Source of the DNA: an uncultured Spartobacteria bacterium | GTDB taxonomy: Bacteria > Verrucomicrobiota > Verrucomicrobiia > Chthoniobacterales > Chthoniobacteraceae | Assembly (NCBI GenBank): GCA_903929475.1 | Contig: CAIYUV010000201.1 | Coordinates: 1-43,372 of the forward strand | Reading direction: 5' to 3' | DNA: 43,372 bases | Part shown: one piece after another, positions 19,269-36,258 of the stretch | How positions within the stretch are numbered: position 1 is the stretch's first letter | Layout of the letters: each line of letters opens with the position of its first letter | Translations under genes and position numbers: made by a program | The notes under the pieces: model-generated | What the model was told of the DNA's origin: nothing | Seen by the model: only the letters and a program-made list of their open reading frames with translations | Database searches by the model: none

Positions 19269-19891
19269 CCTTCCTTCGTATCCCCCTTCACCACTTTCCT
19301 CGCCGCCGCCACCAAAATGTTGCACGCCTCGTGGCAAAGAAGCGGCCATTCATCGCCTCCGCGCGCCGTGAATTTTTCCGCGGGCAGTGAATTCACCGGC
19401 AGCTCGGGCGAGATGCGCCAGAGGATCGTTTTCAAACACCCGCCGTCGGAACAGCATGATCTGGCGATGAGCACCTGTGCCTCCGCGTCCGTGAGCCGCT
19501 GCGTCACGCGATACATCCCGGTCTGCCGTGCGAGCGTGTCGCGCAAATTGACGGGAACGAGTTCGCCGCGTTCGCGCGCGAGCTGCACGCCGATCATTGC
19601 GGGATAAAAGGCATCCAGCGCGCTGCGCACAGACGCCACATCCGGCAGCACGAGGCGCCAGCCATGCCGGAGATTCGGCGCGGTTTTCAGCGCGCGGTAG
19701 GCACCGGCGTCGTCGAGGTTCGCGAGCGGACGGGCGTCTGCGGATTTTGTAAAAAGGTGCAGATCCTCGCGCGCTGCATCGTCCGCGTGGCGCAATTCCC
19801 ATCCATCGTTTTTTTTTGCGATGACGATTTGCCCGATGCGTCGTCCGCCCTTGTCGAGCCAGTCGGCAAGTGCTGCGTTGGTATCCATCAT
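19265..19891 (-). CDS. DR2241-like iron-sulfur protein, CbiX partner
   Basis: A 208-residue protein with a cysteine cluster at its C-terminal half: ARSCCSDGGCLK (Cys146, 147, 152) and LLCHEACNIL (Cys186, 190). This resembles the 4Fe-4S part of the Deinococcus protein DR2241, where it is fused to a CbiX chelatase. Here it is a separate gene whose ATG overlaps the stop of the CbiX gene by one base (TGATG), so the two are translationally coupled. Its stop overlaps the start of the amidohydrolase gene. A role in tetrapyrrole metalation is inferred from this context. Confidence 0.7.
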   Translation of the reverse strand: MMDTNAALADWLDKGGRRIGQIVIAKKNDGWELRHADDAAREDLHLFTKSADARPLANLDDAGAYRALKTAPNLRHGWRLVLPDVASVRSALDAFYPAMIGVQLARERGELVPVNLRDTLARQTGMYRVTQRLTDAEAQVLIARSCCSDGGCLKTILWRISPELPVNSLPAEKFTARGGDEWPLLCHEACNILVAAARKVVKGDTKEG

Positions 19892-20700
19892 CACGCCGCC
19901 GCAGCATCGAATGCCGCCACCTGATCGAGAATGACCTCCGCAAACCCGGCCTCGGTTCCAATCGAGTTTGCGTAAAAAAGCATCCGTCCGCGCAGGCGAT
20001 ACGGATTTTGAGCGAAGACACCCGCGGCGTTCGCGCTCGCCGCGCCGGGCGATGAGTCGGCGATGCCGAGCAGCACGGGGATGTCCTCGTAGCTGTGAAG
20101 CCCGTCGGCGATGAAGAACGGAACAACGACCACGTTGGGCTGAGTGGAAAGCTCGTCCCATTTTGCGATGAGCGGATCCTCCTCCATATACGCGGCAATC
20201 ACCTCGCCAAAAATTCCGAGCGCGCGGATGCGTTCGACTTCGCGCTTCGCGGCGACGGCGGAGTTGTCGTTCAGTCCCGTGCCGTGGCCGACGATGAAAA
20301 GGCTCGTCTCCTTCGGTGGCACGCCGGGCGCGACAGCCGCCGCTCTTTTCAAAAGCAGATCCGTCATGCGCGCGTGGCTGCCGACCGGCGCGCAGTATTT
20401 CACCGTGCGTCCGGCCACATTCGTCTGCGGGCCATCGAGGCCGAGTTCGCGCGGGATCACCGTCTGCGTGAAATATCCTTCGCTGATGAAATTCGGAACC
20501 ACATAGACCTCGCGCTTTGTCACGCAGTGGAGGACCTGCCGCAGACTCGGCTCCTCTTTCCAAAATGCGCAATGCACTTCGCCGAACGCGCCGGATTGCG
20601 CGATGGCGTCGGCGTGCTCCCACGTCGGCCCGCTGCTGTCGGGATTCAGTGTGGAGCCGTGGCCAACGATGACGAGTGTGCTGTCCGGTTTGGAAAACAT
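19891..20700 (-). CDS. CbiX-type sirohydrochlorin chelatase
   Basis: A 269-residue protein with two CbiX-like halves. Each has the metal-handling motif: VIVGHGSTLNPDS (His14) and FIVGHGTGLNDNS (His139), with VVPNFISEGYFT and VVPFFIADGLHSYEDIP as the matching second motifs. Such chelatases insert cobalt, nickel or iron into sirohydrochlorin-type rings in cobalamin, F430 or siroheme synthesis. No other cobalamin or siroheme gene is in the window. It is divergent from the giant Gly-rich protein gene. Confidence 0.87.
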   Translation of the reverse strand: MFSKPDSTLVIVGHGSTLNPDSSGPTWEHADAIAQSGAFGEVHCAFWKEEPSLRQVLHCVTKREVYVVPNFISEGYFTQTVIPRELGLDGPQTNVAGRTVKYCAPVGSHARMTDLLLKRAAAVAPGVPPKETSLFIVGHGTGLNDNSAVAAKREVERIRALGIFGEVIAAYMEEDPLIAKWDELSTQPNVVVVPFFIADGLHSYEDIPVLLGIADSSPGAASANAAGVFAQNPYRLRGRMLFYANSIGTEAGFAEVILDQVAAFDAAAA

Positions 20701-20840: not shown

Positions 20841-23800
20841 ATGAAACGCCCATTCCGCTCTTCCATCGAACCACTCGAATGCCGCATCGCACCGGCTATC
20901 CTCGTCAACGGCCCGAATCTTCTCGGCTCCGGAAATCCCGCCACTGGTGAAATGTCACTGGGTGACAACAGCGTCACTCTCGTTAAGGTTTTGGCCGGTC
21001 AGATCATCGTCTGGTATCAGGATGGAAACATTGCCAGCGTCTCTTTTGGGCCGGGTGCAAATTTTCAGATCACCGGCGATGTTCTGGGCGACATCGTGGG
21101 TAATCTTGGGGCCGATGGGCGGCTGAGCGATTCGGACGGTGATCCCGTCAATGGCGAAGATGGAAACGTCCTACTTCCCAATGATCTCGCTGGTTTGAAA
21201 ACCACGCAGTTTGCCACGCAGAAGGGCGGCTTCCGCTATTTGATTACCGGTGGAGCAGCGGCAAATTTGAACATCAGCGGTCAAATCGAGGGCATCTACA
21301 CGGGCGATGGTGTTTTTGATACGGACTCCGACGCGCTCGTCGCCGGGAGCGTTGTGAGCAGCATCGGCTTTGACGTAAATCCTCTCACAGCCGGCCCGCA
21401 GGATGATTTTACATTCACAAAAGCTACCTCGCAGATGAAGGCTGGCGCGGGCTTGAAAAACGCAGTGATTGGGATTGGCAAGGAGCTGGAAGTTTTCACC
21501 GGCAGCGGAAACCCGGGCGGCGTCGTGCCGGATCCACTCAAGCCCGGAGCGCCCGGCGGCGACATTGTGAACATCATGATCAAGAGCGCATTTCTTGACG
21601 CCAACAGCAACGGCAGCACGCCGAGCTACCAACTCAAGGCGGGAAGTGGCGGCGATGGCAAGACGGGCGGCAAGGGCGGCGACATCGCAACCGTGATCGA
21701 GGAAAGCTCGGTTGGCAGTGTATTTTTCACAGCGGGGAATGGCGGCGCAGGAAGTGGCGGAAAAGGCGGTGATGGCGGTTCATTGCGGCTGCTCGAAATG
21801 CGCAGTGACAGCACGCGCTACGAATTTCACGCGGGCAACGGCGGCGACGGCGCGCCGGCTGGCGCGGGCGGCAGCCTTGTCACAAGCAATTTTACGAATC
21901 TCACCACAACCGGCGGCATTATCCGCACGGCGGATTTCACGGGTGATGGAGTGGATGATTTGCTCATCGTGGACACGGCCACGGGCAACATGGTGATCAT
22001 GAAGAACGACGGCACCGGAACGAATTTCACGCCGGTCATTCAGCATGACAATGAAGTCTTCATTCCGCCGGCAGGCGCGACGCCGTCCGATGTGGCAATC
22101 GCCGACATGGATCACGACGGGAAGCTCGACATCTACGTCTCCTACAAAAACGACAACAGTGTCGGCATCTTCACCAATCAAGGCGGGGGAAGTTTTTGGA
22201 ACGTCTTCAACGGAGTCTACAGCGTGCAAAAATTCAATTATTTATTCACGCCATCCTTTATTGTTCCTGCGGAATTTGGCGGCAGCAGCGGTCTGGATTA
22301 TATACTCGTCGAAGTGCGGACCGGGCAGACGATCGTGCATCAGGTTGTTTCGATTTTGTCTCAGGATCTCAGTCATGAGATATGGGAGGTCGGCGCAGAT
22401 CTCGGTGTCTACCCTTCAGAGGCGACAACGGTCGCCTATGGAAGCGATCCTCAAAACCTCAACGTATTCATCGGCTTTAAGAACGGCCACGTTGGAAGCA
22501 TTCGTGGCGGCGCGCTCGCGTTGCACGATGCCGGGATTGGAGTCCCCGGCGGAGTGGGCCAGCTCGATCTGGACAGCAGCGAACAGGTGCTGGCCGCCCT
22601 TGGTTCGAGCGGAAGCGACCTGCGTGTTTTTAACGTCTCCGGAACCGATCTGCTGGCGCTCAATGCCCCCGCTTTCCCCGCCGCCGGCAAGGCGCTCATC
22701 GCACACTTTACCCACGACAATGACCAGAACACCCCCGACGATCTCGCCGTGTTGTTCAGCAGCGGTGGAAACTCGCGCATTGATCAATTCAAAGTAACGA
22801 GTGGTCCGGATCCGCTGAATCCCGCGCTCACTTGGAGCGCACCGATCAGTCTTGATTCGCTGAACCCGTTGAAAAATTTTGAGACGGTGAATGCAGCGGG
22901 CTCATTCCAAGGCTACGCAGCACTCGGAGCCGCGCTGAATCAAATTTCCTTCAGCCTGAACGGTGCGGATTTCATTGATTTCTCGCTGCCTTTCACCGGC
23001 AAGCGCGTGTTTCTCTTCGGTGGTGACGGCGGGACGGGAATTGATGTGGGAACTTTCGCGGGCAAGGGCGGCGCGGGTGGCAGTGTCATCGGCCTGAATG
23101 CAGTCGCGACCGATGTGAAAGTCACCGCCGGCAAGGGCGGCGACGCGCTCGATGGCGGCGGCGGCGCAGGCGGCATGGTGCAGAACGGAGCGACGCTTGT
23201 TACGCCCACGGGTCTGACTGTTGTTCCGAAAATCGAGGCGGAGACCACGCTCATCTTTGTCGCCGGTGACGGAGGCTCCCCGCTCGGTGTCGGCAGCAAG
23301 ACTGCGTCGGGCGGGGCCGGTGGTGGAATCATCGGGATCACTGGCACGCTCAAGACGGGTCAACTCACTGTCACTGCGGGCAGTGGCGGCATCGGCAAGG
23401 GCGCGGCTGGCGGTGCGGGCGGAAGTGTGAACGGCTGCACGCTGACTGACAAAGGCGGCAACCTGATTGTCACCGCAGGCAACGGCGGCGATGCGTCAGT
23501 TGGCAAATTTGCGGGCGGCGCGGGCGGCGGCATCAGCATTTTCAGATACATGCTTTTGAGCGATGTTGACGCCGAGCAGATCGAATCCAATTACTTCGCC
23601 ACACTCACCACGGGAAATGCCGGTGATTCGGCGCAGGGCACTGGCGGCGCGGGTGGCGTGGCGCAAAATATCACCATCAGCGTGGATCCGCCAAACCGCA
23701 CCTACAATAATCCGACCGCCGCGCCGCCGAAGACAGACGCGCATGTGGACAGCACATTCCGGTTTTCGTTAACGACCGGCGACGGCGGGAACGGCGGCAT

Positions 23801-25106
23801 CGGAGGAAAAGGCGGTCTTGCCGCCAATCTCAACATGACCGTGGTGCATGATCAAAGCCATGAGGATGGTTCGATTCTTCCGGCCTATGCTGTTGCGGAT
23901 GTGTTCCTCGGCGACGGCGGCAGTGGCGCGGCGGGCAATGGTGGCGACGGCGGATCATTTGCCAGCGGACGATTCACCGGGCTTTCAAAATTTGATCCCG
24001 ATGCCCCGACACCCTTGGACAATGTTTCACGCACGCCACTGCGCATCACGAGCGGAAAAGGCGGCGCCGGCTCGCTCAAAGGCGGCGCAGGCGGCGGAGT
24101 CACGGGTGTCTCCGCACACAACGCGCAATTTGGCGAGCTTGGATCGAACCCAGATGGCAGTGTCATTTTGATCGGGACGACGCTGCTCGAAGGTGCGGAG
24201 TTTTACGGAGGTGCGGGCGGTGCCGGAGGGACGGCCGATGGTGGAAAGGGCGGCGACGTCGCGGGATTGAATCTTGGCGTGCAATTCGGCCTGCTCTACG
24301 CAATCGCGGGTGATGGTGGCACCGGGGCCAAGGGCGGCGTGGGTGGTGCAGTGAAATCGAGCACGCTGGCGACGGTTTCGACCATATTCGATAATGCAAT
24401 CATTGTTGCCGCAGGCAGCGGCGGTGATGGTGTCGCGTCCGGCGGCATCGGTGGTGCATTGATGGGGCTCAATTTCAACGCACCCACGGGCAAGCTGAAT
24501 TTGTCCGGCATGCAGACTACACTTGGAGCGCCGATCGTCCTTTTTGCAGGAAAAGGCGGTTCAGCCAGCGGTGCGGGCGGCAAGGGTGGCGCAGGCGGCG
24601 ACGTGAACGGCATCAGTCATACGAAGGATATTTTCAGTTCCATCAGCACGATTATCGCCGGCAACGGTGGTGCGGCCACGGGCACTGGCGGCCTGGGCGG
24701 CAAGGGTGGCGGTGTGTTGAATGTGCATACAGTCGGCTTCATCGGCAAACCGACTGACGGCACCACGAAGCTGGGGGCTTTTGATGAACTGGGCAATGCG
24801 CAGGGTCTCTTCGTGGGCCGCGGCGGCGCAGGAGCAACGGCGGGCGTGAACGGCAGCGTGACTGGCGTGGTCGCCCGGCAGATTGCGGCGATTGGCGCGG
24901 CAGCCGATGCTTCGGGTGTATTCGCAGCCGCCGAAAAAGTAAGCAACGTGAAGGCTGACCTCATCGGCTACGATGTGGATAGCGACGGTTCATTCGACGG
25001 TGCAAGTGCGAGCCCCGGCAGCGGCAAACCGGTGGATGGATTCCTGCTCGCTAAAGTGCTCAGTTCCGTTTCAGGCAACCGCGCGGCATTCACATTCATC
25101 GCATAA
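20841..25106 (+). CDS. Giant Gly-rich repeat surface protein with FG-GAP insert
   Basis: A 1421-residue protein. ATG 20841 is chosen because the sequence then opens with MKRPFRSSIEPLECRIAPA, a basic N-terminus plus the EPLExRIAPA signature common on secreted proteins of Verrucomicrobiota (related to LEPR-type starts in Planctomycetota). About 18 degenerate units of the form strand-(A/T)G-x-GG-x-G...GG-x-GG-strand follow. Three occur at about 21620-21890 and the rest from about 22990 to 24870. Between them lies a region with FG-GAP/VCBS-type calcium motifs (ADFTGDGVDDLLIVD, ADMDHDGKLDIYVS), probably a beta-propeller. Near the C-terminus is DVDSDGSFDG, another Ca-binding-like loop. It is probably an exported adhesin or surface-layer-like protein; function unknown. 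Confidence 0.87.
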   Translation: MKRPFRSSIEPLECRIAPAILVNGPNLLGSGNPATGEMSLGDNSVTLVKVLAGQIIVWYQDGNIASVSFGPGANFQITGDVLGDIVGNLGADGRLSDSDGDPVNGEDGNVLLPNDLAGLKTTQFATQKGGFRYLITGGAAANLNISGQIEGIYTGDGVFDTDSDALVAGSVVSSIGFDVNPLTAGPQDDFTFTKATSQMKAGAGLKNAVIGIGKELEVFTGSGNPGGVVPDPLKPGAPGGDIVNIMIKSAFLDANSNGSTPSYQLKAGSGGDGKTGGKGGDIATVIEESSVGSVFFTAGNGGAGSGGKGGDGGSLRLLEMRSDSTRYEFHAGNGGDGAPAGAGGSLVTSNFTNLTTTGGIIRTADFTGDGVDDLLIVDTATGNMVIMKNDGTGTNFTPVIQHDNEVFIPPAGATPSDVAIADMDHDGKLDIYVSYKNDNSVGIFTNQGGGSFWNVFNGVYSVQKFNYLFTPSFIVPAEFGGSSGLDYILVEVRTGQTIVHQVVSILSQDLSHEIWEVGADLGVYPSEATTVAYGSDPQNLNVFIGFKNGHVGSIRGGALALHDAGIGVPGGVGQLDLDSSEQVLAALGSSGSDLRVFNVSGTDLLALNAPAFPAAGKALIAHFTHDNDQNTPDDLAVLFSSGGNSRIDQFKVTSGPDPLNPALTWSAPISLDSLNPLKNFETVNAAGSFQGYAALGAALNQISFSLNGADFIDFSLPFTGKRVFLFGGDGGTGIDVGTFAGKGGAGGSVIGLNAVATDVKVTAGKGGDALDGGGGAGGMVQNGATLVTPTGLTVVPKIEAETTLIFVAGDGGSPLGVGSKTASGGAGGGIIGITGTLKTGQLTVTAGSGGIGKGAAGGAGGSVNGCTLTDKGGNLIVTAGNGGDASVGKFAGGAGGGISIFRYMLLSDVDAEQIESNYFATLTTGNAGDSAQGTGGAGGVAQNITISVDPPNRTYNNPTAAPPKTDAHVDSTFRFSLTTGDGGNGGIGGKGGLAANLNMTVVHDQSHEDGSILPAYAVADVFLGDGGSGAAGNGGDGGSFASGRFTGLSKFDPDAPTPLDNVSRTPLRITSGKGGAGSLKGGAGGGVTGVSAHNAQFGELGSNPDGSVILIGTTLLEGAEFYGGAGGAGGTADGGKGGDVAGLNLGVQFGLLYAIAGDGGTGAKGGVGGAVKSSTLATVSTIFDNAIIVAAGSGGDGVASGGIGGALMGLNFNAPTGKLNLSGMQTTLGAPIVLFAGKGGSASGAGGKGGAGGDVNGISHTKDIFSSISTIIAGNGGAATGTGGLGGKGGGVLNVHTVGFIGKPTDGTTKLGAFDELGNAQGLFVGRGGAGATAGVNGSVTGVVARQIAAIGAAADASGVFAAAEKVSNVKADLIGYDVDSDGSFDGASASPGSGKPVDGFLLAKVLSSVSGNRAAFTFIA

Positions 25107-25121
25107 GCGCGAAAAAATCCG

Positions 25122-26165
25122 CTATCGATTTGACGCAGCAGGCGCCGGGAAGTGCCCCAGTGGATGCACTTCGTTGCCGGGCAGCGGCCACACTTTTTCC
25201 TGGATGCGCGCTGCGAGCGGTTTGGCGTTTGCGTAGGCGGCGGCAAACATTTCCAGCTTCGCGTCAAGATTGTCCACGTAGTGCAGGGCGATGGCCTCGG
25301 GTGTCTTCGGCACGACGGGGCTGCCAAATTGCAGTTCGCCGTGGTGCGATGCGATAAGGTGGAGCAGGTGCAGGCGCACGTCCTCGCTGGCCGGGTCGAG
25401 CGGGAGCCATGTCTTCCACTCGTCGCATGTTGTGAGTTTGCGCCAGAGGGTGTTCACGAGTTCGATGCCGATGGTGATGTGGCCGAGCAGTTCGCCGGTT
25501 TCATTATACGGCATCGTGAAGCCCTCGGGCGGGAGTTGGTTTTCCCACATCTTTCCGCAGTCATGGAAAAGCACGCCCGCCACGAGCAGTTCGCGGTTCA
25601 ACTGCGGATAGACCCCCGCGATGGCCATGGCGGATCGCATCATCTGCGCGACGTGCTCTGCGAGGCCGCCGCGCCGCGCGTGATGATTATTGCGCGCCGC
25701 GGCCGCACGGCGAAAACGGTCGCCAAATTCCACGAGAAACGCCCGACTCAACGCGGCAAGCCGTGGATCGATGAGTGAGGCCACGCATTGTTCGATGAAG
25801 GCAAAGTCAGCAGCCTGTTTTTCGCGCAACGAAGGCGAACCGGCGAGCAGCGTATCGCGCTCATCGGTTTTTAGCTCTCGCACAGTCCAGCGGTTTGATT
25901 CGATTCCGAATTTGCTGCTGGAAAAATCGCCCGCAATTTCCACGAAAACGCCCACGTTCGCCCGCTCGCAAAAAGAAAACGCTGGTGAATCATTCCACGC
26001 TTTGAGCGAAAATTTTGCCTCTGAATCCGCCAGCGTCACCTCAAAATAGGGTTTGCCGTTGCTCGCGTCTTTGCGCGTCAGCGCCTCGATCTGGGCATTG
26101 ATGCGGGCCTCGATGCGCCCTTCGGCCGCGGCGCGCTTCAGTTGGGAGATGGGGAGTATTTCCAT
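25122..26165 (-). CDS. OB-fold plus HD-domain phosphohydrolase, YhaM-like
   Basis: A 347-residue protein with an N-terminal OB-fold nucleic-acid-binding domain (about 15-100, KPYFEVTLADSEAKFSLKAW) and a C-terminal HD domain: NNHHARRGGLAEHVAQM, GVLFHDCGKMWE (His201-Asp202) and IASHHGELQFGSPVVPKTPEAIALHYVDNLDAK. This is the architecture of YhaM 3'-5' exoribonucleases, and the spacing of HD residues is intact. It converges with the giant repeat gene (15 bp between stops). RNA turnover is the likely role by family. Confidence 0.86.
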   Translation of the reverse strand: MEILPISQLKRAAAEGRIEARINAQIEALTRKDASNGKPYFEVTLADSEAKFSLKAWNDSPAFSFCERANVGVFVEIAGDFSSSKFGIESNRWTVRELKTDERDTLLAGSPSLREKQAADFAFIEQCVASLIDPRLAALSRAFLVEFGDRFRRAAAARNNHHARRGGLAEHVAQMMRSAMAIAGVYPQLNRELLVAGVLFHDCGKMWENQLPPEGFTMPYNETGELLGHITIGIELVNTLWRKLTTCDEWKTWLPLDPASEDVRLHLLHLIASHHGELQFGSPVVPKTPEAIALHYVDNLDAKLEMFAAAYANAKPLAARIQEKVWPLPGNEVHPLGHFPAPAASNR

Positions 26166-26351
26166 GTATGCGTCTTTTCCGTGAGAGGCTGGCGGTGTCG
26201 AGACAGAAATGCTAACGACGAAATCACTTTCAAAATTTCATTTGCTGCACATCAATGCAGTTACATAGTAAATGCAATTCCTGACCACATTTCTCGACTT
26301 TCACTAAAAACCCGCATCCTTTGTCCGAAAACGCAACCCCTCAAAATCGCC

Positions 26352-27077
26352 ATGAACCCACATAAACGCTCCGCTTTCTCCCTCGTCGAACTGCTCGTTG
26401 TCATCACAGTCATCGGCATCATCGGTGCCTTTGCGGTGCCCGCCGTAAGGAGCATGCTCAAAGGTTCGGGCCTGTCCAACGGTGCGAATATGCTGATGGA
26501 TGAGGTGGCTCTTGCACGCCAGCATGCGCTCACGAAGAGTCGCATCGTCGAGTTTCGTATTTACCGTTTTGCAGATCCTGAGGCACCGGGTGAAACACTC
26601 GCCACTCCTTCCACCGGTCAATTTCGGGGGTTCCAATTTTTCGAGGTTTCAGACAGCGGAGCGATTATGCCCGTGGGAAAATTTAAGCGGTTGCCCGATG
26701 GCATCATGATGAACAGCGGGGTCGGGAACTTTAACTCATATACGACGGCCACGCTTTCCTCGTTGCTGGGTGAATCTATAAAGTTTAACACAAATTACGT
26801 CCTGAATACTGCCCTCACGGAGCCCGATCCCGAGCTGCCTCGCGGCGTAAAGAAGAAGTATGATTACGTTTCTTTCCGCTTCATGCCCGATGGAACAACG
26901 AGCCTTTCGCCGACGGGAAGAGCAGCAACTGCGTCGGAGGGTGGCAAGTGGTTCATCACACTCCATCACATCGCGGATATATCGAAGGCCACGACCCCTA
27001 ATCAGTTGAATTTCGTAACATGGATGATCGATCCCGTAGGCGGCACTTCCAAGTTGCTTCGCCCAGGGTTGAAATAA
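26352..27077 (+). CDS. Type II pseudopilin, Verru_Chthon cassette protein D-like
   Basis: A 241-residue protein with a prepilin N-terminal methylation signal (KRSAFSLVELLVVITVIGI): the cleavage and methylation site precedes Phe, Glu follows at +5, and a hydrophobic helix comes next. Behind it, MLMDEVALARQHALTKSRIVEFRIY resembles the GspH-like and Verrucomicrobia 'cassette protein D' families. The long beta-rich C-terminal part ends in MIDPVGGTSKLLRPG. In Chthoniobacter-type genomes this family usually sits with cassette proteins A, B and C. None of those is next to this gene here. It is expected to be part of a type II secretion or pilus-like machine. Confidence 0.82.
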   Translation: MNPHKRSAFSLVELLVVITVIGIIGAFAVPAVRSMLKGSGLSNGANMLMDEVALARQHALTKSRIVEFRIYRFADPEAPGETLATPSTGQFRGFQFFEVSDSGAIMPVGKFKRLPDGIMMNSGVGNFNSYTTATLSSLLGESIKFNTNYVLNTALTEPDPELPRGVKKKYDYVSFRFMPDGTTSLSPTGRAATASEGGKWFITLHHIADISKATTPNQLNFVTWMIDPVGGTSKLLRPGLK

Positions 27078-32672: not shown

Positions 32673-34568
32673 TTATGCCGACTCGATCCACTTGCCGTGT
32701 TCTTTGATCAAATCCACCAGGCGCGCGACGGCTTCGGCTTGCGGGATGTTGAACTTCACCGGCTTCTTTCCGACGTAGAGATTGATCTTCGCAGGCGCGC
32801 CGCCGACGTAGCCGAAATCCGCGTCGGCCATTTCGCCGGGACCGTTCACGATGCAGCCCATGATTGCGATTTTCACACCCTTGAGATGCGAAGTGGTGGC
32901 TTTGATAAGCGCGGTTGTTTCCTGAAGATTGAACAGAGTGCGGCCGCAGCTCGGGCAGGCGACGTAGTCGGTTTTGAAGATGCGCGCTCCAGCGGCTTGC
33001 AGCAGATTGAAGGAGACGCGCATGAGCTGGCCGGGGCCGTCCCAGCCGGTGAGCAGGATGGCGTCGCCGATGCCGTCGCAGATGAGGCTGCCGAGCGTGG
33101 CGGAGGTTTCGAGGAGGTAATCGAGGAAGTCCGGTTGCGGGCCGCGCTCGTCGCGCGGGCAGAGATCGTCAGTGAGGAGGATCGGGTGCCGTTCGTCGAG
33201 CTTCGCCGCGAGGGTGCGGAAGGCGACGGTCGGATGAATGAGCCGCGCGAGCGGTCGCACGGTGACGAGTTGCGGTTCGGGCGAGCGATTGATGGCCGCG
33301 ATGGCCTCGTCGTCCTCGGGATCGACGTCAACAATGCCGGTGCCGAAGCGCGGCTGATCGAGCACGCCGTCCGGCTTGTATTCGCCGAGCTGCGCGATCT
33401 TGTGGGCGAGCGCGCCGTAAATGTCGGGCGGGGTGAGGACTTTCATGACCTGCTCGCCGCCGATCTGCGTGCCGGCGACGGTCACCGTCCCGGTGGCACG
33501 GCGACGATAGGAGAAGGGGTCGTGCTTCGGCACCGGCGGGTTTTTCGGCGCGTTGGGCATGATGCCGGAGGTCGCGGCGATAAGTTTTTTTGCGACGGGG
33601 ATTTCATGGATGCTGTCCTCGGTGAGCGAAACACGAATCGTGTCTCCGATGCCATCAAGCAGCAGCGAGCCGATGCCGATGGCGCTTTTGATGCGTGCGT
33701 CCTCGCCATCGCCGGCCTCGGTGACGCCGAGGTGGATAGGGTAGGCCCAGGAGGAATTTAAGATTTCAGATTTAGGATTTAAGATTTTCGAGTCAGGCGC
33801 TTCGCGCGTGGCATTTTCATTTCCTTCCGGCGCAGCCGCATTTTTTCCAAATCTTAAATCTGAATTCTTAAATCTTAAATCCTCTTCCCCGAGCCTCGCC
33901 ACGAGCAGCCGATACGCTTCGATCATCACCTTCGGGTTGCTCGATTTCATCGAAAAGACGAATTCGTGATAGTCGAGTTCGCGGGCGATGCGGGCGAACT
34001 CCAGCGCGCTCTCGACCATGCCGAGCGGTGTGTCGCCGTAGCGGTTCATGATGCGATCCGAAAGCGAGCCGTGATTTGTGCCGATGCGCATCGCGCGTCC
34101 GTGCTCCTTGCAAAATTTCACCAGCGGCGAGAATCGCTCGCGGATGCGCTCCAACTCGGCGGCATACTGCTCGTCGGTGTATTCGAGCACCTTGAATTTT
34201 TTCGAGTCGGCGTAGTTGCCGGGGTTGATGCGGACTTTTTCCACCCACTTCGCGGCCTCCATCGCGGCTTCGGGTTTGAAATGAATGTCGGCGACGATGG
34301 GAACGTTGCAGCCGCGCTCGCGGAGTCCGGCGACGATGTGCTGGAGATTCGCGGCATCTTTGACGGTGGGTGCGGTGATTCGGACGATTTCACAGCCGAC
34401 GGCAACGAGGTCGAGTGTCTGCTGGATGGACGCGGCGGTGTCCATCGTATCGCACGTGATCATGCTCTGCACGCGCACGGGATTTTCGCCGCCGATGGCG
34501 ACTTCGCCGACGCGGACGACGCGCGATTTCCGCCGCTGGTAGCTGTAGGGCGAAGGGCAGTATTCCAT
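32673..34568 (-). CDS. ispG: 4-hydroxy-3-methylbut-2-enyl diphosphate synthase (long IspG)
   Basis: A 631-residue enzyme of the MEP isoprenoid pathway that converts methylerythritol cyclodiphosphate to HMBPP using a 4Fe-4S cluster. It is the long plant/chlamydia form with an extra domain. Motifs are GGENPVRVQSMITCDTMDT, ADIHFKP, VRINPGNYAD, GTNHGSLSDR, HLGVTEAGDGED and DTIRVSLTED. The cluster part at the C-terminus is CPSCGRTLFNLQE and MGCIVNGPGEMADADFGYVGG. A 43-codon segment (about residues 229-271), encoded by a palindromic 129-bp repeat, is inserted in frame just before WAYPIHLG. ATG 34568 follows the rseP stop by four bases. Confidence 0.97.
   Translation of the reverse strand: MEYCPSPYSYQRRKSRVVRVGEVAIGGENPVRVQSMITCDTMDTAASIQQTLDLVAVGCEIVRITAPTVKDAANLQHIVAGLRERGCNVPIVADIHFKPEAAMEAAKWVEKVRINPGNYADSKKFKVLEYTDEQYAAELERIRERFSPLVKFCKEHGRAMRIGTNHGSLSDRIMNRYGDTPLGMVESALEFARIARELDYHEFVFSMKSSNPKVMIEAYRLLVARLGEEDLRFKNSDLRFGKNAAAPEGNENATREAPDSKILNPKSEILNSSWAYPIHLGVTEAGDGEDARIKSAIGIGSLLLDGIGDTIRVSLTEDSIHEIPVAKKLIAATSGIMPNAPKNPPVPKHDPFSYRRRATGTVTVAGTQIGGEQVMKVLTPPDIYGALAHKIAQLGEYKPDGVLDQPRFGTGIVDVDPEDDEAIAAINRSPEPQLVTVRPLARLIHPTVAFRTLAAKLDERHPILLTDDLCPRDERGPQPDFLDYLLETSATLGSLICDGIGDAILLTGWDGPGQLMRVSFNLLQAAGARIFKTDYVACPSCGRTLFNLQETTALIKATTSHLKGVKIAIMGCIVNGPGEMADADFGYVGGAPAKINLYVGKKPVKFNIPQAEAVARLVDLIKEHGKWIESA
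33755..33883. repeat. 129-bp palindromic repeat inserted in frame in ispG
   Basis: Each arm consists of tandem 7-bp units of the type AAATCTT/AAATCCT/AAATCTG. The right arm (33849-33883) holds five units on the plus strand and the left arm (33755-33788) the same kind of units on the minus strand, so the arms are inverted repeats. A GC-richer centre of about 60 bp separates them. The arms are far more AT-rich than ispG. The length, 129 bp, is exactly 43 codons with no stop in frame. It resembles a small non-autonomous mobile or intergenic repeat captured inside a gene. Confidence 0.82.
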
Positions 34569-34572
34569 CGCG

Positions 34573-36258
34573 CTACTTGGCCGGGGCCTCGGCCTGGGCT
34601 TTGTCGGCATATGGGAATTTGTCCGACTTTCGTCCGCCGAAAACGTCCTGCAAATCGAAGAAAGTCACGTAGAGCATGAAGCCGAGAATGAGCATCGTTC
34701 CGGCGGTGACGAACCATTGCACGGGTTTGCTGTTCGCAAGTTCGTCGGCGGCCTCGGGCCGGCCTTTTAGCGCGGCGATGGTCGCAAAGGTAATGTGGCT
34801 GCCGTCGAGCGGAGGAATCGGCAGCAGGTTCATTAGAGCGAGGTTGACGTTGAGCACGACCGAGAACCACAGCGCGAGCTTCCAGCCATCTGTCTGCTCA
34901 AACAAAAGATAATAGACGCGCATCATCATCACCGGCCCGCCGAGATGCTGTATGCTCAAGTCGCTCTTGCTGCTCGTGACTGCGCCGAACGTGTTGAAAA
35001 TCGCGGTCGCGCTCGCACGGATTTGCTCCTCCGGCCCCGGGTGGCGCGTATCGCCTTTTCCGTAGGGGTCGTAGGTGATTCCGAATTTGTCATCGAATGC
35101 GATCCCAATACGGGGACGTGTTCCGCCTTCATCCTGCTTCGCCTCGGCGGGAGTCACAGTGATTTCCGGCAATGCTTTTCCATCACGTTCGACGATAAAT
35201 TTCATCGGCTCCTTTTTCTGCCCCTGCACGTATTTCAAAAGTGCTGTCGAGGATTTGAGTGGCTTGCCGTCTATGCTCAGCACGACATCATTTTTCTTAA
35301 GGCCCACGCGCTCTGCCGGGCTGTCAGGCACGATGTGGCCGATGATCGGGAGGTTTGGGCGGAAGGGGACTTTGAGTATCTTGGTGTTGTTCTTCGTGCC
35401 GCGCTCGATTGTCAGTTCCAATTCCTCGGATGGATGTTCTTCAAGATAGTTGGAAATTCCAAGCGGGGTGACGAGTTCCTGTCCGTTCACATGGGTGATA
35501 AAATCGCGGGGCAAAAGTCCAGCGTCTGCTGCGGGACTCTTCGGATCCACTTTGCTGATGAACGGCGTCGTCGCCGGAGCGATTCCAAGTTCACGCGTTT
35601 TTCGCCGCGTTAAAATTGTCTTCTCCGGTCGGGTTGGAGCGGTGTCCAGTTTCAGTTCTTTTCCGTCACGGATCACCACCACCGGCACCGTGTCGCCTTC
35701 GCTGCGGACGACGCGCCACATGATCGCGTCATTGCCCTGGCCAATCCAGCGCTTCACGGGGATGCCATCAATCGAGACGATTTTGTCACGCGCCTTTATT
35801 CCCGCTTTTTCCGCAGGCGAATCTGGAACTACGAAACCGACCACGGTCGTGCTCGCTTCTTCGCGCATCGGGTAGCCGATTTGCCAGACGATCACTGCGA
35901 AAATGCACGCCAGTAAAAAAGAGAACAGTGGCCCGGCTGCAGCGACGATGATTTTGTCCAATGGCTTCGCGGTGGGGACAGTCCCCGCTGGATATTCTGT
36001 TGAACCTTCGATGTCGCCATTCGCGAGCTGCGGCAACTTCACGTAGCCGCCGAACGGAATCGAATTCAGCGCAAACCAGACACCGCCGATTTTTTTCCGC
36101 CAGATGGGTTTTCCAAACCAAATCGCGAACTCCTCCACAATGAGTCCGCGCCATTTTGCAGCGAGGAAGTGGCCGAGTTCGTGGAAGAAGATGACGAAGT
36201 TGAACAACATCACCACTTCGAGGAAGATGCCGAGGAATTTGAGGATGCTGAAAAACAT
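34573..36258 (-). CDS. rseP: RseP-type site-2 membrane metalloprotease
   Basis: A 561-residue M50 family intramembrane protease that cleaves membrane-bound regulators and signal-peptide remnants. The zinc motif HELGH is at residues 26-30 in the first membrane helix, and the second metal motif is in NLLPIPPLDGSH near the C-terminus. Three PDZ-like domains can be read between them: PDSPAEKAGIKARDKIVSIDG, PKSPAADAGLLPRDFITHVNG and PDSPAERVGLKKNDVVLSIDG. E. coli RseP has two and is about 450 residues long. It lies between dxr and ispG in one tight gene row. Confidence 0.94.
   Translation of the reverse strand: MFFSILKFLGIFLEVVMLFNFVIFFHELGHFLAAKWRGLIVEEFAIWFGKPIWRKKIGGVWFALNSIPFGGYVKLPQLANGDIEGSTEYPAGTVPTAKPLDKIIVAAAGPLFSFLLACIFAVIVWQIGYPMREEASTTVVGFVVPDSPAEKAGIKARDKIVSIDGIPVKRWIGQGNDAIMWRVVRSEGDTVPVVVIRDGKELKLDTAPTRPEKTILTRRKTRELGIAPATTPFISKVDPKSPAADAGLLPRDFITHVNGQELVTPLGISNYLEEHPSEELELTIERGTKNNTKILKVPFRPNLPIIGHIVPDSPAERVGLKKNDVVLSIDGKPLKSSTALLKYVQGQKKEPMKFIVERDGKALPEITVTPAEAKQDEGGTRPRIGIAFDDKFGITYDPYGKGDTRHPGPEEQIRASATAIFNTFGAVTSSKSDLSIQHLGGPVMMMRVYYLLFEQTDGWKLALWFSVVLNVNLALMNLLPIPPLDGSHITFATIAALKGRPEAADELANSKPVQWFVTAGTMLILGFMLYVTFFDLQDVFGGRKSDKFPYADKAQAEAPAK

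Follow-up and report, generated by a model that had tools for sequence, protein, structure and literature searches.

A gene in the window, the whole 43,372-nucleotide stretch of an uncultured Spartobacteria bacterium that was analysed here, encodes a protein in which three glycine-rich units, a beta-propeller and fifteen further glycine-rich units follow one another, and the fifteen are predicted to form a right-handed parallel beta-helix. To the reading, based on structural models, that this is an exported beta-helix rod displaying the propeller as a binding head, adhesin- or matrix-like and with roles for its N-terminal tag and C-terminal tail, we give a probability of roughly 60%. Computation established the architecture, the conservation, the family, the genome-wide occurrence of the tag and, as predictions, order and fold class.

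The analysis defines an uncatalogued protein family in a little-cultured bacterial group, and with it a predicted fold combination, a glycine-rich beta-helix with a looped-out propeller, that has no sequence relative in the PDB. The tag marks some dozen proteins that look exported but show no evident hydrophobic signal peptide, and how they leave the cell becomes a directly testable question.

Glycine-rich units and the inserted propeller

The gene forms a single transcription unit between a divergent and a convergent neighbour (Table 1), its ATG start lying at MKRPFRSSIEPLECRIAPA, and the encoded protein is large, acidic and probably exported. It is found in freshwater and soil Verrucomicrobiota. 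Beyond the HD-domain gene lies a gene for a pseudopilin-like Verru_Chthon cassette protein D (TIGR02596, 102.5 bits; 26142-27077, + strand). Elsewhere in the window, at 33756-33881, two arrays of a 7-base motif (ATTTAAG and AAATCTT) lie inverted to one another within the GcpE/IspG frame (32673-34610, - strand), with no other copy in the genome when up to 3 mismatches are allowed.

Table 1. Features of the gene and its neighbours, in positions of the window
Feature	Position	Strand	Residues	Remarks
CbiX-type gene, divergent	19891-20700	-		
Whole gene	20841..25106	+	1421 aa	intact single frame; ATG at 20841, stop ends at 25106; 139 kDa, pI 4.5, 2 Cys
N-terminal tag MKRPFRSS-IEPLECRIAPA	20841..20897	+		without hydrophobic signal peptide
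Conserved N-terminal domain	20898..21455	+	about 20-205	common to paralogues B and C (alignment, tree, region identity)
Gly-rich units 1-3	21606..21896	+	256-352	
Inserted FG-GAP-type 7-bladed beta-propeller	21900..22967	+	about 354-709	Pfam PF13517 and VIA
Gly-rich units 4-18	22986..24860	+	716-1340	predicted right-handed parallel beta-helix, GGx-rich loops
Invariant acidic and polar residues	about 23685-24122		949-1094	in loops of consecutive units 10-13
Conserved C-terminal tail	24861..25103	+		contains DVDSDGSFD and DGFLLAKVLS
HD-domain gene, convergent	25122-26165	-		

An earlier note on this DNA had described three glycine-rich units before a propeller-like region and about fifteen after it, and counting in the translation gave 3 and 15. 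The clusters begin at residues 268, 299 and 332 before the propeller and at residues 728, 764, 809, 847, 880, 925, 980, 1024, 1072, 1124, 1157, 1192, 1237, 1274 and 1326 after it, with an additional weak cluster near residue 221. The consensus of the unit is strand-(A/T)GxGGxG...GGxGGxV-strand, and residues 719-1340 contain 13 copies of the strict pattern GxGG...GGxGG, whereas 2000 shuffles that preserved composition gave 0.63 on average and never more than 3. Glycine makes up 27% of this region, which has a period-3 autocorrelation of 0.26. TRF found no DNA-level tandem array in the gene, ruling out tandem expansion at that level; since the units are not tandem repeats in the DNA, they are old and diverged.

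The units are ordered in the AF2 models. Residues 222-1421, modelled with 7 orthologues, reached pLDDT 72 and pTM 0.68, while residues 716-1421 reached pLDDT 80 and pTM 0.85, with the glycine-rich units mostly at 85-97 and the last 35 or so residues disordered. The structure prediction proposed in the earlier note, which had named disorder of these units as the result that would count against it, thus came out in its favour, and a low-complexity or disordered glycine spacer was rejected in view of these confident models. In a second look with VIA, the solenoid aligned to the adhesin EtpA (8vbb; Z 14.2, 3.0 Å, 379 residues aligned) and, at Z 11-14, to tailspikes, lyases and Ag43, all of them right-handed parallel beta-helices, with the reservation that, in repeats, Z values below about 13 may indicate no more than a common arrangement. 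Foldseek with the solenoid alone returned nothing below E 1e-3 (the best match, the P22 tailspike, was at 8.5e-3), which leaves the AF2 model of 7 sequences and VIA as the basis for assigning the fold; from these, residues 716-1380 are predicted to be a right-handed parallel beta-helix. At E 0.23 Foldseek further listed the springtail polyproline-II antifreeze protein 7jjv, a weak match which hints that the GGx loops may be extended, PGII-like chains.

If one unit makes one coil of 4.8 Å, the 15 units together would give a short rod of about 7-10 nm, and for this reason the new type of surface fibre suggested in the earlier note is not established. The fibre reading is also made doubtful by the nearly fixed unit number of the orthologues, unlike that of expandable fibre or stalk repeats.

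The propeller had likewise been read from the sequence, as an FG-GAP region with Ca-binding motifs, and this was borne out. FG-GAP_3 (PF13517) matches residues 365-433 with 41 bits against a cut-off of 26.9 (E 3e-10), and two intact, canonical DxDxDG-type loops, ADFTGDGVDD and ADMDHDGKLD, can be read in the first blades. With VIA, model residues 133-488 aligned to seven-bladed propellers at Z 22-24, and the structural neighbours include BBS proteins, WD domains and the Photorhabdus lectins PLL and PHL; the propeller was modelled with a pLDDT of only some 45-75 and is therefore not reliable in detail. It is inserted between units 3 and 4, interrupting the series as had been proposed. A search of a viral structure library gave mostly generic propeller matches. 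The mixture of glycine repeats with FG-GAP repeats is indeed unusual, the combination being absent by sequence from Pfam, NCBIfam and the PDB. In Pfam and NCBIfam the protein has no match except FG-GAP_3, and the units, the N-terminal domain and the tail are all unmodelled there; the full protein, the solenoid profile and the unit profile found no PDB relative by sequence.

Orthologues, paralogues and the N-terminal tag

Full-length orthologues, 41-82% identical, were found in six further genomes, and one more is split over contigs; the named records are metagenome-assembled genomes that carry the labels Chthoniobacteraceae, Spartobacteria, Prosthecobacter debontii, Verrucomicrobiaceae or Verrucomicrobia. 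Apart from a few losses, each unit has its counterpart in the alignment, the glycine positions are largely invariant and the site of the propeller is kept. In distant orthologues the propeller is the least conserved part (22-34% identity, versus 42-57% in its flanks and 51-59% in the C-terminal tail). The dN/dS values against the two nearest orthologues are 0.085 and 0.132, rough figures with dS at 0.9-1.4, near saturation, and they suggest, as a rough estimate, that the gene is under purifying selection. The solenoid profile, used as a repeat-profile search, had no match at 1e-10 in 144 further genomes from the phylum.

The same genome holds two paralogues, adjacent on contig C295, which we call B (1593 aa, with a propeller) and C (2340 aa, without one), the window protein being A. 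In the regions fetched from nine further genomes, B, C or both are present, mostly side by side, and several genomes with B and C lack A. The alignment of B shows one large gap, the propeller, which follows the first few units and so matches the propeller of A in its relative position. In a tree built from the N-terminal domain, A (support 100/99), B (93/90) and, with weaker support, C (81/97) form separate groups. The C-terminal signature DGx[IVL]xA[KQR], common to all three, occurs in 16 of 26 family proteins versus 0.5 expected from shuffles, mostly 20-34 residues before the protein end; the other tagged proteins lack it. Judged by sequence, A, B and C are a three-member family that is uncatalogued in Pfam and NCBIfam. 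Paralogue C (L053:10853-17875, - strand) carries in addition a long C-terminal array of repeats of about 50 residues (..ALNALPSI..AGGVTV..), for which no convincing Pfam family was found.

The EPLECRIAPA start, which had also been called unusual, turned out to be shared, as 12 frames of this genome begin with E-x-L-E-x-R-I-A-P-A. A degenerate pattern for ExLExRx[..]PA, run on the DNA, matched 12 places and its reverse none; all 12 lie in the N-terminal part of an open frame, and they include the window gene and both C295 frames (examples are on L053, L101, L103, L104, L105 and L106). The bodies that Pfam recognises in these frames are Calx-beta repeats, SBBP propeller, DUF5649, He_PIG and cyclophilin, and several of the frames thus have domains typical of extracellular proteins. 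ExLExRIAPA looks like a general N-terminal tag of large, otherwise unrelated, exported-looking proteins. It presumably directs export. No orthologue of the window protein has a hydrophobic signal peptide, the highest 15-residue Kyte-Doolittle mean being 1.1-1.4. Within the bacterial family the number of tags per genome is distributed bimodally: 12 genomes have 9-28, and the others, among which are three well-completed genomes of the same genus, have 0-2. Outside the family, a sample drawn from the whole phylum contained no genome with more than 2. The counts look as if a dedicated machinery had been gained or lost.

A search of the literature on the tag returned nothing relevant. ExLExRIAPA looks like a relative of the LEPR-XLL tag. 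A metzincin-like protein with a choice-of-anchor L domain (L107:1468-3057, contig C236 of genome G000) begins FIEALESRIVLSA and matches the LEPR-XLL model NF012209 exactly at its cut-off, being the genome's only above-cut-off scorer; its start is a possible intermediate between the two tags. Perhaps, and we put this forward tentatively, this Verrucomicrobiota family has a dedicated export or surface-sorting system, so far undescribed, that is gained or lost as a unit and for which ExLExRIAPA serves as the address; A, B and C would be its largest conserved clients and would form a new surface structure of propeller-bearing rods.

Proposed role and rival explanations

As we picture it, the protein would be exported beyond the cytoplasm and built as a rigid right-handed parallel beta-helix, each glycine-rich unit giving about one coil, in which two strands flank a turn or face made of stacked, extended (GGx)n chain. 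The propeller, looped out between units 3 and 4, would be a side-mounted and fast-evolving binding module, and its DxDxDG loops probably bind Ca2+. The tag would serve export or envelope sorting, and the conserved, unstructured DGFxLAK tail might cap or anchor the rod. The likeliest role would be that of an adhesin or matrix-like structural protein presenting the propeller to a glycan or protein ligand. For the window protein, our searches identified no adhesive domain family, anchor or export system, and the fixed unit number fits a defined particle or an enzyme equally well as an adhesin.

That A, B and C instead co-assemble into a coat, sheath or fibre, with glycine faces packing between molecules, seems unlikely to us. 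Such a surface or matrix component would agree with the nearly fixed unit numbers, with the adjacency of B and C in several genomes, with three paralogues that have the same units and a common C-terminal signature, and with period-3 GGx faces like those packed together in PGII assemblies (PMC10216338); however, A is absent from several genomes holding B and C, and an inserted propeller would hinder lateral packing. It is quite improbable that the protein is a secreted polysaccharide-active enzyme, a beta-helix like those of pectate lyases, alginate epimerases or tailspikes, with its active site in units 10-13 and the propeller as a carbohydrate-binding accessory. Polysaccharide lyases, epimerases and glycosidases are numerous among the neighbours given by VIA and Foldseek, the seven-bladed PLL and PHL lectins are among the neighbours of the propeller, and the invariant residues D949, D970, D1004, D1052 and D1054 lie in loops of consecutive units 10-13; together with the invariant T972 and N1094 of the same loops they could possibly form a binding or catalytic patch. 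However, the beta-helix fold is shared by non-enzymes, no carbohydrate-enzyme family of Pfam or NCBIfam matches, and the residues invariant among orthologues are mostly glycines.

The glycine content and its period of 3, together with the 7jjv match, would also suit a polyglycine II sandwich of the PE_PGRS kind, as which PGRS domains have been modelled (PMC9436101, PMC10216338), or a low-complexity spacer without defined coils. We regard this as very improbable: GGx triplets are present, but the AF2 model has beta strands between the glycine blocks and aligns to parallel beta-helices, the PE domain is absent, and the orthologues keep the number and spacing of their units whereas PGRS domains vary widely in size (PMC9436101).

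Comparison with known systems

The likeness to PE-PGRS proteins seen in the earlier note did not extend beyond GGx composition, as Pfam gave no match to a PE family and beta strands come between the units. The window protein resembles PE_PGRS proteins (PMC9436101, PMC10216338) in its GGx triplets, its glycine content and in being predicted ordered instead of disordered, and differs from them in the strands between its glycine blocks, its near-fixed unit number and its predicted beta-helix. The GRPLI motif is absent from the translation, and membership of PE_PGRS was ruled out for lack of an HMM match, as was that of the RTX or hemolysin-type proteins (GGxGxDxUx), with no Pfam match at E <= 1. 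Fibrillar adhesins are defined by a known stalk domain together with a known adhesive domain (PMC9210967), and in the window protein FG-GAP_3 is the only Pfam family.

With FG-GAP or VCBS-like propellers (PF13517) the protein shares an above-cut-off sequence match and seven-bladed fold neighbours, but here only two canonical Ca loops are present and the propeller is inserted in a solenoid, neither tandem nor terminal. Its tag is comparable to LEPR-XLL (NF012209, LEPR-8K) as a short N-terminal L-E-x-R tag of large exported proteins; it differs in having RIAPA in place of R-x-L-L-(S)A, and the window protein has no match to NF012209 at E <= 10. The closest parallel in predicted fold is with EtpA (a TpsA adhesin), phage tailspikes and Ag43, which share the right-handed beta-helix, although at 13% identity; the window protein differs in having a GGx-rich loop in every unit and the inserted propeller. 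No autotransporter or TPS secretion domain of Pfam matches the window protein, and the models suggest a protein that would work like the secreted beta-helix adhesins while standing, by sequence, outside the autotransporter and TPS families.
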